A stretch of 64,000 bases of DNA from Lactiplantibacillus xiangfangensis. GTDB taxonomy: Bacteria; Bacillota; Bacilli; Lactobacillales; Lactobacillaceae. The notes under the pieces were generated by a model. It saw only the letters and a list, made by a program, of their open reading frames with translations, searched no databases and was not told where the DNA came from. The stretch is taken from the NCBI RefSeq assembly GCF_001438845.1, contig NZ_JQCL01000074.1, positions 42,327 to 106,326 on the forward strand. Direction: 5' to 3'. Of the stretch, positions 6,459 to 44,646 are shown in pieces; the first letter of the stretch is position 1; every line of letters starts with the position of its first letter. A program made the translations under genes and the position numbers.

Positions 6459-6616
6459 GTCAGACAGAACCGGTGTGCTATGGGAGACGGTCCCAGCCAC
6501 AATGCGGTCTGGGATCCTCGATTCCAAGCCGACAAACCACGTCTTTGAATCGCTCCGCAATATTAGCCAATGGCCCCGGCTAATATTGCCGCCACAGCAC
6601 ACCAATCCTGCCTGAC
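6459..6616 (-). repeat. Large branched palindrome, copy 1 (reverse orientation)
   Basis: A 158-nt imperfect palindrome. Outer arms begin GTCAGACAG and end CTGCCTGAC and include GTGTGCT/AGCACAC. Inside are three hairpins; the two clearest have arms 6519-6528/6543-6552 and GCAATATTAGCC (6557-6568)/GGCTAATATTGC (6578-6589). In reverse complement it aligns end to end with the palindrome at 20313-20471, with paired substitutions that keep the stems. No credible coding sequence is present. Confidence 0.75.
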
Positions 6617-6781: not shown

Positions 6782-6953
6782 AGCGTAGCCAGCAGAACCA
6801 GTGGGCCGTGTCGGCGCTGTTAGCTGGCGTTGTTTGCCAGGTTACAGTGCGGGGCGACTTGAAAGACTCGTTCTTTGAGGCTTTCAAGCGAGGCGAAAGA
6901 CCGTTCTTTGTCTATAGCCGACCCCATGGCCCACTGGTTCCGCTGGCGCAGCG
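6782..6953 (+). repeat. Large branched palindrome, copy 2 (forward orientation)
   Basis: About 170 nt with outer arms GAACCAGTGGGCC (6795-6807) and GGCCCACTGGTTC (6928-6940), 13 bp perfect, extended by further pairing. The inside folds into three hairpins: CTGTTAGCTGGC../GCCAGGTTACAG, CTTGAAAG/CTTTCAAG, and a shorter AGAC/GTCT stem. It is nearly identical to the reverse complement of 19943-20119. With copy 1 it forms a head-to-head unit filling the 6430-7030 gap; flank similarity to the second unit continues to about 7031. Confidence 0.75.
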
Positions 6954-18841: not shown

Positions 18842-19801
18842 ATGGAAAATTTTGCCGTCATCGATCTCGGATCAAACTCATGTCGGATGACGATTACCCA
18901 GATCCAACCGGATGGTAGTTACGCCGTAACCCACCGGCTCAAGGAAATGGTGCGCCTATCCGAAAATGAAAGTGTCGGGGAGGTGCCAACTTTACAGCCG
19001 GCCGCCATCGAACGTACCCTGACGGCACTAAAATCATTTAAATCCGTATACGACGAGTTACCCAACTTAACGTTGACCGCGGTTGCGACCGCAGCTACGC
19101 GTAAAGCTAGCAACCAAAAGAAGTTCTTGAAACAAGTCAAAAACGAACTCGGATTAGACATCGATGTTATTCCCGGGACGACCGAAGCCTATTATGATTA
19201 CCTGGGCGTCGTTAACACCCTACCAACGACCAACTGTGTGATGGTCGACACGGGCGGCGGTAGTTGTGAACTCGTCTTGATCATTAACGGCCAAGCCAAG
19301 GAATTGATCAGTTTGCCGATTGGGGCCGTCAGTCTATCAGAAAAGTTCGACTTGCGCGATAAGGTCGCAGCTAACGAGCTCTTTAAAACGATGACTTTTG
19401 TGGATAAACTGTTTAACAGTGTCTGGTGGCTGCGCAACGGGTTAAACCTTCCCTTGGTTTGTCTCGGCGGGAGCAACCGCACCTTGGCAAAGATCAACCG
19501 GCGCAAAAACGACTTTTTAAACTTTGAAGACATTCACGGTTACCGGCTGCGGGACACCGCAATCTACGAGACCTTTGACGAAGTCTTAGGCAAGGACGCT
19601 GCTCAGCGAGCTGAAGTCCCTGGTCTGGCTAAGGATCGCGCCGATATTATTGTCGGCGGCATGATTCCCGCCATCACCCTCATGCGGTTTTTAGACTCCG
19701 ATCGGATGATTTTCTCACAAAACGGGTTGCGCGAAGGCATCCTGTTCGAGCACCTGACCCAGCTAGCCGCTCACAAGAAGCAAACTGCGCCAGCGGACTA
19801 A
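18842..19801 (+). CDS. ppx: Exopolyphosphatase (Ppx/GppA family, short form)
   Basis: A 319-residue ASKHA-fold phosphatase with the N-terminal phosphate loop VIDLGSNSCRMTI and the second glycine-rich loop VMVDTGGGSCELV (about residues 132-144), both typical of Ppx/GppA. It lacks the HD domain present in the first operon gene. The start is one base after the ppk stop, with GGAGAGGAAG upstream, so translation is probably coupled. Its role is polyphosphate degradation or pppGpp hydrolysis. A terminator follows and ends the operon. Confidence 0.9.
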   Translation: MENFAVIDLGSNSCRMTITQIQPDGSYAVTHRLKEMVRLSENESVGEVPTLQPAAIERTLTALKSFKSVYDELPNLTLTAVATAATRKASNQKKFLKQVKNELGLDIDVIPGTTEAYYDYLGVVNTLPTTNCVMVDTGGGSCELVLIINGQAKELISLPIGAVSLSEKFDLRDKVAANELFKTMTFVDKLFNSVWWLRNGLNLPLVCLGGSNRTLAKINRRKNDFLNFEDIHGYRLRDTAIYETFDEVLGKDAAQRAEVPGLAKDRADIIVGGMIPAITLMRFLDSDRMIFSQNGLREGILFEHLTQLAAHKKQTAPAD

Positions 19802-19811
19802 ATTCGTTACT

Positions 19812-19858
19812 AAAAAAATCTTCCCACAAGGCTAACTGCCTTGTAGGAAGATTTTTTG
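19812..19858 (+). terminator. Terminator of the polyphosphate operon
   Basis: AAAAAATCTTCC-CACAAGGC pairs with GCCTTGT-AGGAAGATTTTTT. Confidence 0.88.
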
Positions 19859-19942
19859 GTTGTATTAATAACTAAAGATTGAAAGTGCTAGAACCAGTTC
19901 AATCGTTGCCATGGCACGACTTACCGAAAAATTTAGCTATCT

Positions 19943-20119
19943 TCGGCGCTTCGCCGGCAGAGCCAGTGGGCCATGGGGTCGGCTGCAGACAAAGAACGGT
20001 CTTCCGCCTCGCTTGAAAGCCTCAAAGAACGAGTCTTTCAAGTCGCCCCGCACTGTAACCTGGCAAAAAACGCCAGCTAACAGTGTCGACACGGCCCACT
20101 GGCTCTGCCAGCTACGCTA
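19943..20119 (-). repeat. Large branched palindrome, copy 3 (reverse orientation)
   Basis: Outer arms GGCAGAGCCAGTGGGCC (19956-19972) and GGCCCACTGGCTCTGCC (20093-20109) pair perfectly over 17 bp, with more imperfect pairing outside. Inside are the same three hairpins as in 6782-6953 (reverse complement). The outer stem differs by a compensatory change: GAACC/GGTTC there, GAGCC/GGCTC here. Flank similarity to the first unit begins near 19873. The 19802-20504 gap is filled by this palindrome and the next. Confidence 0.75.
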
Positions 20120-20312
20120 AGATTGCTTTAAAACAACCTAACCATGCTTGGTAACGACCGGAAACGGAAAACTCAACCAATTTTATTGGTGCTAACGTTG
20201 CTATATCAGTTAATTAGTAATCATTTTTGCTTTTCAAACTTTAGTTAATAAATTAAAATCACGGCTGTATCAGTATCCTGAGACTCAAACAAACTAGTTT
20301 GTTTTGAGCGCA

Positions 20313-20471
20313 GTCGGGTAGCCTTGGTGTGCTGTGTCGGCAAGATTGGCGGGTGACTTTTGCGCCAATCTTGCGGGGCGCTTCAAAGACGTGGGTTGTC
20401 GGCTTTGAAGCGAGGTCGCAGACCGTACTTCGGCTGGGACCGTCCCCCATAGCACACCAGGGCTACCCGAC
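20313..20471 (+). repeat. Large branched palindrome, copy 4 (forward orientation)
   Basis: Outer arms starting GTCGGGTAGCC and ending GGCTACCCGAC, with GTGTGCT/AGCACAC inside, pair at nearly every position. Internal hairpins are GCAAGATTGGCG/CGCCAATCTTGC-type and CGCTTCAAAG/CTTTGAAGCG. It matches 6459-6616 in reverse complement, with several paired changes that keep the stems, and shares a skeleton (GTGTCG-hairpin-CGGGGCG-hairpin-CGAGG) with the 6782 and 19943 copies. Confidence 0.75.
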
Positions 20472-20504
20472 GAAGCGGATACTTAGGAATAGCTATCGCT
20501 ACTA

Positions 20505-20720
20505 TTATTGCTCTTTTTTAGCTTGGCGTTGTGCGGCTTGATCCTGATGCCAACTAGTTGGACTCCATAATTGTCCTTCCATCGAGCCCTGCAAACTTTC
20601 AATTTCGGCCTGTTGGTCACTAAGGACCTTAATGATGCCGTCAATGGTGTATTGGTTACCATCCGCACGCAAATCCTTCAAGGCTTGAATCGCCCACGCA
20701 ACTTGATCTTGTTCACTCAT
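20505..20720 (-). CDS. Small hypothetical cytoplasmic protein
   Basis: 71 residues, highly polar and Gln/Ala/Lys-rich, starting MSEQDQVAWAIQALKDLRAD. I place the start at ATG 20720, which has AAAGGAG 7 nt upstream; the longer frame to 20744 has none. No hydrophobic segment or known motif is seen; a helical, possibly coiled-coil protein is likely. It lies between the palindrome pair and the spx-like gene. Confidence 0.6.
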   Translation of the reverse strand: MSEQDQVAWAIQALKDLRADGNQYTIDGIIKVLSDQQAEIESLQGSMEGQLWSPTSWHQDQAAQRQAKKEQ

Positions 20721-20816
20721 GTCAAAAACTCCTTTAACTCTCAATTCGTATTTTTCTATTATATTGTACGCAATGTTTCACCTTTAACCAACCATTTTGC
20801 TTAAATTTCAGACCAA

Positions 20817-20851
20817 CAAAAAAGTGCCACCGTTATAAATAACAGTGACAC
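20817..20851 (-). terminator. Terminator of the Spx-like gene
   Basis: On the minus strand GTGTCACTGTTA pairs (with G-U) with TAACGGTGGCAC, followed by TTTTTTG. Confidence 0.8.
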
Positions 20852-20866
20852 CCACGTTAACGGTGA

Positions 20867-21289
20867 TTACCCAACTGCCTGTTGGTCGTCATCGTATAAT
20901 TTTTGTTGAATTTCGCGTAATTCTGACTTACGCACTGAACGTGGCAAGAATGCCCGAATATCTTCTTCGTTGTAGCCGATTTGTAAACGACGTCCATCAT
21001 AAATGATTGGCCGCTTTAGTAGTTGTGGTTTTTCGACTAATAAATCTAACAATTGGTTAAAGCCAAGGTCAGACAAGTCAATGTGCAGTGCTTTGAAAGC
21101 CTTAGAACGCGTTGAAACAATGTCCTCGAAGCCATTTTCAGTGAGCCGGAGGATTTGTTTCAATTCATCGCGATCCAGAGGGTTAGCAATAATATCGCGT
21201 TCATTGAAAGTAATGTTGTTTGCAACCAACCATGCACGCGCACTACGGCTTGACTTGCTGGATGTTGAATAATATAAGTTTACTGTCAC
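20867..21289 (-). CDS. spx: Spx-family (ArsC-like) regulator lacking the CxxC redox switch
   Basis: A 140-residue ArsC-fold protein of the Spx family, which bind the RNA polymerase alpha C-terminal domain and redirect transcription in thiol stress. The C-terminal signature RPIIYDGRRLQIGYNEEDIRAFLPR is essentially canonical. At the N-terminus, where Spx normally has C10xxC13, this protein reads STSSKSSRSARAWL, so both cysteines are serines. RNA polymerase binding could be retained while disulfide control is lost. The start is GTG or ATG near 21289 behind TAGGAGGAAT. A palindromic operator overlaps its promoter. Members of the wider ArsC family are the alternative. Confidence 0.87.
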   Translation of the reverse strand: MTVNLYYSTSSKSSRSARAWLVANNITFNERDIIANPLDRDELKQILRLTENGFEDIVSTRSKAFKALHIDLSDLGFNQLLDLLVEKPQLLKRPIIYDGRRLQIGYNEEDIRAFLPRSVRKSELREIQQKLYDDDQQAVG

Positions 21290-30350: not shown

Positions 30351-31865
30351 TAGGAAGAAGCAATCATTAACTAAAACATAGAAAAATGTAGAACTTACGT
30401 AGAAAAATTATCAAGCTCCCCATAGAGAGAAAATATGGAGGTGGCGAGCTTGGTAATGATTAAATCTAGTGATAATCCATCACAGTTTGTCCGTTGTAAA
30501 AAGTGAAAATTCGCATTTTATCTTGCCCAACTAAATCAGTCTTATTGATACCAAAAAAATCATTCTCGATGATCAAATCACTGACATCAATAGTTACCTA
30601 AATTATAATGAGAAGTGAAAAGACAACACTAATTTGGGTGGTGATGATGCTGGTGATTCGAACACAAAAAGTAAGACTTTATCCTAATCGTCACATGAAA
30701 AAGGTGCTCGATAGCCTTTGTGATTATCGGCGATACTGCTGGAATGAGGGGCTGGCTACTTGGAATGACATGTATGACTTATATACGCTTGATTCAAGTA
30801 GTCCCCGTCCCAGTGCTTATTCAGTTCGCAATGAACTAGTTGCGAATAAAGCTGATTGGCAATATGCGTTATCAGCACGTACCTTACAATTGGCGGTTAC
30901 TGACTTAGGTCAGGCTTGGCAGAACTTCTTTGATAAGTCACAGCCTGACTGGGGTAAACCGGCGTTCAAGTCGAAAAAGGCTGCGCGTCAAGGTTTTAAA
31001 ACCGACCGGGCTAAAATTGTCGCTGGCAAACTTCGATTGGACAAACCACATGATATCAAAGATTGGTATGACATCAGGATTAGTAAACACTCTGACTTGT
31101 CAGGCGTACTGAAGGTGGTCAGCATTTACCGTGAAAATGGGAAATACTGGGCCAGTCTTCCCTTTGAAGTTGAGCTTGATAACAAGCCACAAACTGGTGA
31201 TAATTCAGCTGTTGACGTGAACGTTGGCCATTTAAATTACACGGCTGGCGTTGTTAATACCTTGCCGAAACGGTTACGTAAGTTGTATCAGCGCATCAAG
31301 TTTTACCAAAAGCAGTTAGCTCATAAGCGAGTTGTGAACGGCAAAAAAGCAACTAAAGGAAGTCGTTACGTTGCAATGAGAGCCAAATTGCAGCGTGATT
31401 ATCGCAAAGTTGTCAAGATCCAACATGATATCATGCAAAAGTTTACGACGAAACTCGTCAATAATTACGACAAAATCGTGATTGAAGACTTATCCGTCAA
31501 AGCTATGCAGATGAGCCACGTTGCTTCTAAAGGTTTGCAACGGTCAATGTTTGGCTATTTTCGGCAGATACTAACTTATAAATGCGACTGGTACGGTAAA
31601 GAGCTGATTCTAGCAGACCAAGGGTATCCCTCAACACAACGCTGTTCAAAGTGTGGTCATATCAAAGTTGGTGACGATAAAATCACATTACAAGGTAATG
31701 AAAGGCACCGTACTAAACATAATGAGTATGTTTGTTATAGTTGTGGTGCGGTGCTCAATCGTGATGAAAATGCCGTTGCTAATTTACTAGCTTTAATCTA
31801 AAAATAAAAACTAAACGGGGCTGGCTAAGCCCTTAAGCTGTCATAGTTGGTCAATGCGATTACTC
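30351..31865 (+). mobile_element. IS605-group TnpB-only insertion element
   Basis: The left end is set at about 30351, where similarity to 1-207 begins; a subterminal hairpin is at about 30410-30455. A single tnpB gene follows and no tnpA (Y1 transposase) is present, so mobility would need a TnpA in trans. The right end is not defined; I place it near the GGGCT/AGCCC hairpin region before about 31865. It sits between two divergent tagD genes. Confidence 0.65.
30647..31801 (+). CDS. tnpB: TnpB RNA-guided nuclease family protein
   Basis: About 384 residues, a full-length TnpB related to the ancestors of Cas12. The RuvC catalytic residues appear as Asp190 (NSAVDVNVGHLNY), Glu280 (IVIEDLSVKAM) and Asp373 (LNRDENAVANL). 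A zinc-binding CSKCGH...CYSCG module lies between the last two. All look intact, so nuclease activity is likely. The first RuvC motif is less canonical (VDVNVG instead of GIDLG). I prefer the ATG at 30647 (or 30644) behind GGTGGTG; the frame is open to 30608. The guide RNA would come from the 3' end of the element. Confidence 0.85.
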   Translation: MLVIRTQKVRLYPNRHMKKVLDSLCDYRRYCWNEGLATWNDMYDLYTLDSSSPRPSAYSVRNELVANKADWQYALSARTLQLAVTDLGQAWQNFFDKSQPDWGKPAFKSKKAARQGFKTDRAKIVAGKLRLDKPHDIKDWYDIRISKHSDLSGVLKVVSIYRENGKYWASLPFEVELDNKPQTGDNSAVDVNVGHLNYTAGVVNTLPKRLRKLYQRIKFYQKQLAHKRVVNGKKATKGSRYVAMRAKLQRDYRKVVKIQHDIMQKFTTKLVNNYDKIVIEDLSVKAMQMSHVASKGLQRSMFGYFRQILTYKCDWYGKELILADQGYPSTQRCSKCGHIKVGDDKITLQGNERHRTKHNEYVCYSCGAVLNRDENAVANLLALI

Positions 31866-31870
31866 CCTAG
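31790..31870 (+). ncRNA. Possible omega-RNA scaffold / element right end
   Basis: In TnpB systems the guide RNA overlaps the end of tnpB and the right end. Here the sequence after the stop contains GGGCT-GGCTA-AGCCC and further partly paired segments, and could supply the scaffold, with the guide just outside the element. The boundary is not determined. Confidence 0.3.
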
Positions 31871-32004
31871 TGGAATATCAGAATACTGGTGTTATAACGG
31901 TAGCAAGCAAAAAACAAGAAAGGAAATATGTAATCTTTCTAAATGTGGAAATCAGCAATGATTTTCTATATTTCTCTATATTTTGCATAGCAGGATTTTT
32001 TCAT

Positions 32005-42051: not shown

Positions 42052-42089
42052 AAAATAATCTTCCTTTACTGTTTTGAATTGTTTCTAGC

Positions 42090-42228
42090 TGCGTGGGTAA
42101 AATATCTGTCATCAGTCTCACAACTGGTTTTTGTAATTACCCTGTAGAGTGCAGTCCCTGACGTCACCCGTCGATTGTCGATAAACGTCATCCTCGTCAA
42201 CTTTAAAACCTAAAGTCCTGGCGCTATT
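42090..42228 (-). ncRNA. glmS ribozyme
   Basis: On the minus strand the leader reads A|GCGCCAGGACT, then AGTTGACGAGGATGACG and ATCGACGGGTGACGTC, matching the conserved core of the GlcN6P-dependent self-cleaving glmS ribozyme. Cleavage is expected between 42225 and 42224. The 3' boundary is approximate. Confidence 0.92.
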
Positions 42229-42247
42229 CCAATTGAACCAATTGAAA

Positions 42248-42614: not shown

Positions 42615-42741
42615 TGGGCTGATAAGATATGTGAATGTAATCACACACGTTCACACTCCTTCTGATAGAAAGGCGGTTTTACCCCATACTTTAATGATAC
42701 CCTGTAGTTAGATGCCCACCCAACAAGCGAGGTGTATTGAC

Positions 42742-44592
42742 ATGCAACGACAACTTCAGCAAAACTACTGGACTGCAGCTCGGCACGTCTTCCGAATCTT
42801 GGTAGCGACGTTCGCCTTTGCTAGCGGAATCAGCTTAATGCCAGCCACCGTACTGGCCACTGACAGTTCTGAACAGCCCGCAACCGAACAAGTACAACCA
42901 TCAGCGACTGAACAACCGACCATTCAAAGTGGCGGTACGGTCTATGAGGACCACCCCAACTTACAAAACGTTTTAGGCGTTGCGTCGCAATTTCACATCT
43001 TTGCCCGGGCAGCGGAACTTAAAACGCACACCGCGGGTAACTTGGCCGTCCAAACACTAACTGGGCACGTTGACTTCGGAACAACTAATAAACTCGAGTT
43101 GCTGGACCGCGATATTACCTACTTGCAAAACATCAAAATGATTACCGGAAGTTGTTTCGTTTCCGCAGGGCCAACTCGCTGTAATAAAGTGATTTTTGGT
43201 GAAACCATCCCCATCGACATCAGTGACCCAAAACGGCCCCTAATTAGCAACGTCCATATTGGCCACTTAGTTGCGGATGAGGTTTATCAGGATCAACCTG
43301 GTCAAGTCTACCTTGATTTTGACGCCGAGTTTGCAGCCTTATCTCAGCTAAACCTCACGCTCAGTCAAACGTCCCCGCAGGCGCAGTTTAGCAACGCTGA
43401 CTTTACGGATGAAAACAACCGGGTCATCGACGTGTCAAAACTGGGCTCCGTAAATGGTCAAATCGTAATCAACTTAACGCCAGAAGTACTCAGCTTATCA
43501 CGACCACTGATTATCGAAGGTTTATCAGACACCCCCAACGGTCCCACCGTCATCTTCAACGTTGATACCGGCGCCGCGGACTACGTTGTGAATAGTCCTA
43601 TCAAAATCATCTACCAAGATGGGACGGAGCGAAGTAATAAGGACGCTGACGACTTTGGCGATAACCACTTACTTTGGAATTTCCACAACGGTCAGCAAGC
43701 CGTGACGGGAACCCTGACCGTCAACGCTACTTCACAAGGGAGTGTCTTACTCCCACACGGAAATTTAGTGGCTAATCAAAATATGGATGGTAACCTAATT
43801 GCCAACAACGTTTTGATCCAAGCCGAAAGCCATCGGTGGGACTTACAAGACAATTCAGGTAACGAGCAGGAACCTGAAGAAGAAGACGAAGACATCATTA
43901 CTGAACCCGATCCCGAGGAAGAAGACGAAGACATCATTGCTGAACCCGATCCTGAAGATGAGGACAAAGAAACCGTTACTGAACCCGATCCTGAAGATGA
44001 AGACAAAGAAACTGCCACTGAACCCGATCCTGAAGATGAAGACAAAGAAACTGCCACTGAACCCGATCCCGAAAAAGAAGACTTAGTAACACCGGAAACA
44101 CCTGCCCCGGAAAAAGAAACGACTAAAGAACCAGACGAATCAACTCAAGGAAAAGAAACGGTTGTAAAAGAAACTGAGTCAAAAACAGCGGATAAAATTT
44201 TAGACGCGCCAACTAAGCGAACCCAAAGCACCACGACAATCAAAGTGCCGGATCAACCAGCTACCTTGACGCCGGTTAGCGACGACCCAGCAGTTGAACA
44301 GCTTGACACTGCTCTGACGCAGACATTGGCTCAACCGACTAGCCAAAGCAGCGCGAGTCCAGCGCTAAAAACGCTCGACCGCCACATTCAACAAGCACAA
44401 GCCGCCAATGACCCGGTTCGCGCGACCCAGCTTGCTAACGTTCGGTCACGGGGATTAGCAGCCGCTAACCTGCATCGGTTGCCGCAAACCGATGAACAAG
44501 AGGCAATTATCCTGACAGTCATCGGACTCTGCCTGACCCTCATTGCTCTGGGGATTGGTTGGTACCGCCATCCCCGAACACGTTCTAACTGA
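42742..44592 (+). CDS. Sortase-anchored surface protein, choice-of-anchor-A-like adhesin
   Basis: 616 residues: signal peptide (about 1-37, ending PATVLA), a beta-rich region (about 60-370), an acidic repeat region (about 377-448), a Thr/Lys/Glu-rich spacer, and a C-terminal sortase signal LPQTDE (580-585), hydrophobic helix and basic tail. LGVASQFHIFARAAEL, HLLWNF, VLLPHGNLVANQNMDGNLIANNVLI and the closing SHRWDL resemble choice-of-anchor-A adhesin domains. LPQTxE is the form of sortase signal common in L. plantarum. ATG 42742 has GAGGTG upstream. Ligand unknown. Confidence 0.85.
   Translation: MQRQLQQNYWTAARHVFRILVATFAFASGISLMPATVLATDSSEQPATEQVQPSATEQPTIQSGGTVYEDHPNLQNVLGVASQFHIFARAAELKTHTAGNLAVQTLTGHVDFGTTNKLELLDRDITYLQNIKMITGSCFVSAGPTRCNKVIFGETIPIDISDPKRPLISNVHIGHLVADEVYQDQPGQVYLDFDAEFAALSQLNLTLSQTSPQAQFSNADFTDENNRVIDVSKLGSVNGQIVINLTPEVLSLSRPLIIEGLSDTPNGPTVIFNVDTGAADYVVNSPIKIIYQDGTERSNKDADDFGDNHLLWNFHNGQQAVTGTLTVNATSQGSVLLPHGNLVANQNMDGNLIANNVLIQAESHRWDLQDNSGNEQEPEEEDEDIITEPDPEEEDEDIIAEPDPEDEDKETVTEPDPEDEDKETATEPDPEDEDKETATEPDPEKEDLVTPETPAPEKETTKEPDESTQGKETVVKETESKTADKILDAPTKRTQSTTTIKVPDQPATLTPVSDDPAVEQLDTALTQTLAQPTSQSSASPALKTLDRHIQQAQAANDPVRATQLANVRSRGLAAANLHRLPQTDEQEAIILTVIGLCLTLIALGIGWYRHPRTRSN
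43870..44085 (+). repeat. In-frame 39-bp tandem repeats in the adhesin gene
   Basis: Units starting at 43903, 43942, 43981, 44020 and partly 44059 are 39 bp apart and encode EPDPE-D/E-EDK/E-E/D-T/I-x-T/A; the 43981 and 44020 units are identical. Copy number could change by slippage or recombination without breaking the frame. Confidence 0.85.
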
Positions 44593-44646
44593 CCTAAAGG
44601 TTGAAAAGTCTAAATTCAGCCTTCAATCTTTAGCTGATACTAAAAA

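Follow-up and report, generated by a model that had tools for sequence, protein, structure and literature searches.

The BOX and RUP-type repeats of streptococci are modular, palindromic and intergenic elements of a Gram-positive genome. REP/BIME elements, which are moved by RAYTs, are palindromic mobile hairpins that lie in intergenic regions at the 3' ends of genes, and group IIC introns insert directly behind intrinsic terminators. GOLLD, ROOL and OLE are conserved, elaborately folded RNAs of Lactobacillales and others (PMC12286853).

In this study, we analyzed a window of 64,000 nt from Lactiplantibacillus xiangfangensis, in which a sequence-only reading had compared two palindromes and taken their compensatory base changes as a sign of selection on structure. 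We found that the palindromes are modules of MITEs, which form a large family in lactic acid bacteria, and that these elements stand directly behind intrinsic terminators more often than controls do. With a probability of about two in three, we read these elements as terminator-targeting MITEs that carry a new structured-RNA-like family, whose function is putative.

Fold and covariation of the module

We compared the two window copies of the palindrome, here called module A (Table 1). They are homologous over the coordinates given in the sequence-only reading, with 124/155 aligned positions identical, and both form the same kind of fold, in which the stems stay paired despite base differences. 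The consensus fold of A has 58 pairs in six helices: the outer stem (15 pairs), the inner stem (8 pairs), the three hairpin arms and a short helix at the junction. Between the two copies, 44 of these pairs are identical and nine differ on both sides with pairing kept. Three pairs differ on one side and remain paired through a change to or from wobble, and in two more a one-sided change leaves one of the copies unpaired. Differences were also found at 8/39 unpaired positions. The earlier figure of about seven double changes was therefore an understatement, since nine are counted on the consensus structure.

Table 1. Coordinates of modules, element ends and neighbouring features in the window
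Feature	Position	Strand	Remarks
Module A, copy named in the sequence-only reading	20313..20471	+	three-armed cloverleaf with outer stem, inner stem and three hairpin arms; 185.6 bits with R1, a model built with this copy among others
Module A, second window copy	6459..6616	-	153.1 bits (R1); this copy is part of the model too
Module B, divergent homologous cloverleaf	19952..20113	-	96.2 bits, E 4.9e-20 (R1); 208-nt repeat; head-to-head with A at 20313
Module B	6787..6948	+	90.5 bits (R1); adjoins A at 6459, again head-to-head
Terminal inverted repeat CTAAAGATTGAAA, left end	19872..19884	+	C15:62198-62210
Terminal inverted repeat, right end of B element 19872-20244	20232..20244	-	one mismatch
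7-bp target duplication TTAATAA, left	19865..19871	+	L094
7-bp target duplication TTAATAA, right	20245..20251	+	L094
Intrinsic terminator behind exopolyphosphatase gene	19812..19857	+	T-tract (scored position) 17 nt before element end
41-nt remnant of the two terminal inverted repeats, nearly back to back	44594..44634		beside a terminator hairpin (by eye), behind an adhesin-like gene

A larger alignment of module A was built from the genome of the window (G000; 2.99 Mb, 103 contigs). A blastn search returned 43 rows, with 40 of 81 candidates scored, and 40 of these rows (three 24-nt fragments were omitted) were joined by the copy at 6459 to give 41 copies. In this alignment 96.4% of cells are paired. 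Double changes occur at 29/58 pairs, compared with 16.1 +/- 1.7 after shuffling (0/500 shuffles as high), and 207 cells are doubly changed against 64 in the shuffled data. When the partner was slid by 1-3 columns, only 5-13 pairs had double changes and 31-45% of cells were paired. The covariation check proposed with the sequence-only reading thus gave an excess of paired over single changes.

Furthermore, we placed 121 A copies, 61 from G000 and 60 from the sister genome G012, on a tree, which is rough as it is based on about 160 columns. Parsimony on this tree counted 191 double events that keep the pair (59 on internal and 132 on terminal branches), whereas with re-dealt partners the mean was 6.3 and the highest count 32. 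Single changes that break a pair numbered 184 (40 internal, 144 terminal). The covariation therefore exceeds both controls that keep relatedness, the slid columns and the columns re-paired on the same tree. Pairing, and not sequence alone, appears to be kept by selection.

The same fold was followed across the genus and into other genera, where 77/86 rows were kept in an alignment. Its 92.6% of paired cells must be read with a lean towards structure, because the alignment was fitted to the model. Three or more Watson-Crick types, each seen in no fewer than three rows, occur at 38/58 pairs, and G·U outnumbers A·C by 239:65. Letters are conserved mainly in loops and junctions, and the core bases that recur across genera are cGAGG, an arm AGACCG..GGCU, and then CCG..CCCCA.

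Module family, carrier elements and terminators

We searched for related modules with R1, the covariance model of the A modules, and found that modules of types A, B and C are homologous by model score. At 15 A loci, where a second, oppositely oriented module was sought with R1, it reached 42-65 bits across the whole model at 12 of them; it was weaker at L032 (33 bits) and L010 (26 bits), and none was found at L046. The census of G000 holds at least 145 modules with fragments included (62 A, 40 C, 23 B and 20 other). It draws on 105/121 rows (15 opposite-strand echoes and one weak fragment were omitted), together with 23/29 and 40/41 rows, and some low-scoring fragments remain in it. The copy counts are lower bounds, as the two blastn searches scored 40 of 81 candidates and 40 of 94, respectively, and a further search scored 150 of 906. 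Neighbouring modules less than 400 nt apart are divergent in 33/35 cases, convergent in none and tandem in two, and both tandem pairs involve short fragments. In the divergent pairs, the 3' side of each module faces its own element end.

R1 matches at E <= 1e-4 were found in 16/21 genomes of the genus, with 0 to 134 per genome, reverse-strand echoes included. At E <= 1e-6 and with stricter filters, 45/301 sampled genomes of the family and 8/40 genera contained a match. Carriers that an exact pattern identified by name are Lactiplantibacillus pingfangensis, L. nangangensis and an uncultured Lactobacillus sp. MAG, and divergent module pairs recur in other genera. The collections of phage and plasmid records that were searched contained no module match. 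Among the papers covered by a literature search, none describes the module family in its title or the start of its abstract; most subscription papers lie outside that scope.

Rfam at the gathering threshold returned three matches in the window and none at a module, and relaxed thresholds at 19800-20867 gave only sub-threshold hits. A glmS ribozyme lies at 42085-42236 upstream of glmS (86.7 bits, Rfam), as expected. The stretch 30608-31895 holds the gene of a TnpB-type protein (IS605 OrfB, with a Cas12f1-like TNB domain) and, just behind its stop codon, the Rfam Transposase-1 RNA at 31838-31895. We also observed a pair of inverted repeats at 2-207 and 30351-30555 (137 nt at 85%, 45 nt at 93%), one copy of which is just upstream of the TnpB gene; the R1 search reported no module at either place.

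The 159-nt unit is a cloverleaf module inside larger elements that carry one or two modules. Around the A copies, homology continues for about 80 nt in one direction and for as much as 240 nt or more in the other, and the copy at 20313 is without clear ends of its own. The ends of the element are CTAAAGRTTGAAA and its reverse complement, which form 13-bp terminal inverted repeats. This sequence occurs at 38 exact places, and at 106 places with at most one mismatch against 17 for the reversed control. We identified 23 bounded elements of 251-612 bp. A perfect 7-bp direct repeat flanks 7/23 of them, and across all 23 the mean identity of the direct repeats is 0.69 at 7 bp, compared with 0.26-0.48 at the other lengths from 2 to 12. 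The longest frame has 23-98 codons in 22/23 elements and 143 codons in one (L002). Elements with one module exist between terminal repeats, and at L144 only a module fragment is present. Terminal inverted repeats, a target duplication of fixed length, and a short body in which no transposase gene was seen are the features of MITEs.

The 41-nt remnant in the window (Table 1) is probably an extreme deletion derivative of the element. The ORF at 42712-44592, which encodes an ice-binding-like adhesive-domain protein, contains six tandem copies at 39-nt spacing (43831-44129). In other genera, the copies that were compared share little beyond one module, and those of G283 have in common roughly the module and 16 nt at either side of it.

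To find the moving enzyme, we looked at 81 loci of 117 matches to PF00872, PF01610 and PF13612 in the 21 genus genomes, and no transposase with matching ends was found there, so we only infer such an enzyme. At L482, an end pair with two mismatches each was rejected, as its right end lies inside the transposase match. We also looked for an autonomous element between and around widely spaced modules, and the ORFs listed for three of seven such stretches look like host genes.

The position of the elements relative to terminators was assessed with 25 bounded elements, 23 from G000 loci and two from G012. An intrinsic terminator points into at least one end in 21/25 of them. Terminator-positive flanks numbered 24/50, compared with 10/49 control flanks taken 100-190 nt out (Fisher p = 0.006) and 46/500 shuffled flanks. 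These counts come from a laxer finder with its own controls; the first finder (17/25) missed hairpins visible by eye. The distance from T-tract to element end is 9-17 nt for 21/24 scored T-tracts, which equals the T-tract plus the 7-bp duplication. This tight spacing is the main argument for the preference, because terminators are common in such regions, as the distal control flanks indicate. In other genera the link is weaker (17/39 modules; 18/77 flanks against 14/152 control flanks). The genes on either side are convergent at 34 of the 70 own loci, co-directional at 31 and divergent at two, the other three loci are at edges, and by heuristic ORF calls none of the 70 modules is spanned by an ORF of at least 150 codons.

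Strand bias, turnover and rival explanations

We found that the minority cells in the A modules (41 copies) comprise 94 G·U against 27 A·C on the sense strand. On the 121-copy tree, single changes that leave Watson-Crick pairing have G·U:A·C ratios of 47:8 on internal and 123:69 on terminal branches, and the bias is stronger on the internal ones (Fisher p = 0.003). Unpaired sites drift the opposite way, with 163 changes of the G·U-making type and 264 of the A·C-making type, and neutral mutation pressure with a strand bias is therefore unlikely to have produced the excess of G·U seen in A modules. Two A pairs are G·U in the majority of copies (33/41 and 36/41); arm 2 has an A·G mismatch and arm 3 a bulged A, both with no or almost no variation. 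In B modules the ratio is 36:17 (21/29 rows used), whereas C modules alone show no strand bias (40:36; 29/40 copies used). Thus, the proposal of selection on structure, made from the two window copies, gains support and is refined in two respects. The selection acts on a single strand, and it is stronger on internal branches. The latter places the structural constraint probably more on the propagating element than on resident copies.

To follow the resident copies, we compared G000 with related genomes. The stretch 19870..20493 (+), which holds B and A, has no counterpart at the same place in G012, where a weak module of 34.3 bits lies on the strand opposite to B. This is not a clean empty site, because the weak module sits behind the same terminator. 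In G012 this module (L257:2529-2762), behind the exopolyphosphatase terminator, is accompanied by what by eye is the apparent base of a lost A stem, and the site looks like either repeated use of one terminator or clean loss of A. A module copy behind pepX is common to the own genome and G012 and is missing in G006. By flank matching, 13 copies matched among 61 own and 60 sister A copies, a lower bound because 40 own loci had only 300 nt of flank. This suggests that A copies turn over fast between sister genomes.

The matched copies were compared in 13/14 pairs (L386 was ambiguous, and L023, L042 and L379 may be non-orthologous). Over the 743 base pairs compared, we counted 36 changes of the wobble type and 33 single changes by which a pair is broken or restored. 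Double changes kept pairing in 24 cases and were without pairing on both sides in three, and one change occurred within a position that is unpaired. The difference amounts to 8.3% at paired sites and 14.7% at unpaired ones, and the resident copies are at most weakly protected. This weak protection, together with the bias on internal branches, suggests selection for spread.

The paired changes might instead arise as a mutational by-product, if replication corrected one arm of the quasi-palindrome against the other by template switching, with no selection involved. Long, near-perfect quasi-palindromes are the classic substrate of template switching. The stems of the module are long and near perfect, and some double changes between the window copies are close together, for example at 20322-20323, as such a process would leave them. 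Correction from arm to arm would be expected to yield perfect stems and to erase irregularities, yet the majority G·U pairs, the A·G mismatch and the bulged A persist, which argues for selection on a folded single strand. The process should also be symmetric between strands, whereas A and B modules have more G·U than A·C, and it does not account for loop and junction bases conserved across genera. The wobble bias of A and B modules, which C modules alone do not carry, thus favours a folded single strand over arm-to-arm correction, and we consider a purely mutational origin very doubtful. The folded strand could also be DNA, with the module acting as a cruciform or single-stranded hairpin that a transposase or replication protein reads at each end, so that RNA is irrelevant. 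G·T pairs are tolerated in single-stranded DNA too. That tolerance, the C modules without strand bias and the divergent arrangement, in which each module of two faces its own end (33/35), are all consistent with such a structure. However, a double-strand cruciform predicts no excess of G·U over A·C, the terminal repeats with their 7-bp duplications hint at a DDE mechanism on double strands, for which folded ends are not required, and elements with one module, or with only the fragment at L144, exist between terminal repeats. A DNA-level role is possible but rather unlikely, and the folded single strand would more likely be RNA than ssDNA.

The placement of the modules behind terminators and between convergent genes, and a core conserved across genera, would also fit regulators or terminator add-ons (an attenuator, insulator or 3' stabiliser) that the host has domesticated and keeps for its own use. 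Against such host benefit, few copies have matched flanks in the sister genome (13/61, the lower bound given above), genomes of a single genus have anything from 0 to 134 model matches (echoes included), pair-breaking changes occur in the matched resident copies, and the constraint is stronger on internal branches. We regard domestication as improbable.

Under the preferred reading of terminator-targeting MITEs with a structured-RNA-like module, the elements would be moved in trans by a DDE-type transposase. The module would act as a folded single strand, probably RNA, and its fold would be kept because elements that have it intact spread better. The fold may bind a protein of the transposition machinery, or it may protect both the element and the genes of the host against read-through where the element lands, at the 3' ends of genes. 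A further version, to which we give a slim chance, is that the cloverleaf is a transposon-encoded RNA that chooses or marks terminators, with transcripts binding the transposase or paused RNA polymerase and insertion following at the T-tract. If true, this would be a terminator-seeking, RNA-assisted transposition system.

Significance and comparison with known systems

The modules would represent a structured RNA-like family absent from Rfam, and with tens to more than 100 model matches in some genomes they offer many natural variants for dissecting structure, function and mobility. Their carrier would be a mobile element that is not an intron and yet sharply prefers intrinsic terminators, and landing at terminators would explain how so many modules are tolerated. 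The question of why a mobile element keeps a cloverleaf thereby becomes testable.

Like other bacterial MITEs, the elements are short, intergenic and present in high copy, with terminal inverted repeats, a duplication of fixed length and little coding capacity. They differ in carrying one or two homologous cloverleaf modules, divergent if paired, in the selection on structure and in the terminator preference. BOX and RUP repeats are likewise modular, palindromic and intergenic, whereas the modules here are homologous to each other, about 160 nt long and linked to terminators. Insertion at terminators is shared with group IIC introns (21/25 elements here), but our elements have terminal repeats and 7-bp duplications, and the window has no Rfam match to a group II intron core. 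The placement resembles that of REP/BIME elements; the structure is far larger and is accompanied by terminal inverted repeats and target duplications. Finally, the modules share an elaborate, conserved and RNA-like fold with GOLLD, ROOL and OLE, while they are much shorter, multicopy, borne by MITEs and without a match in Rfam.
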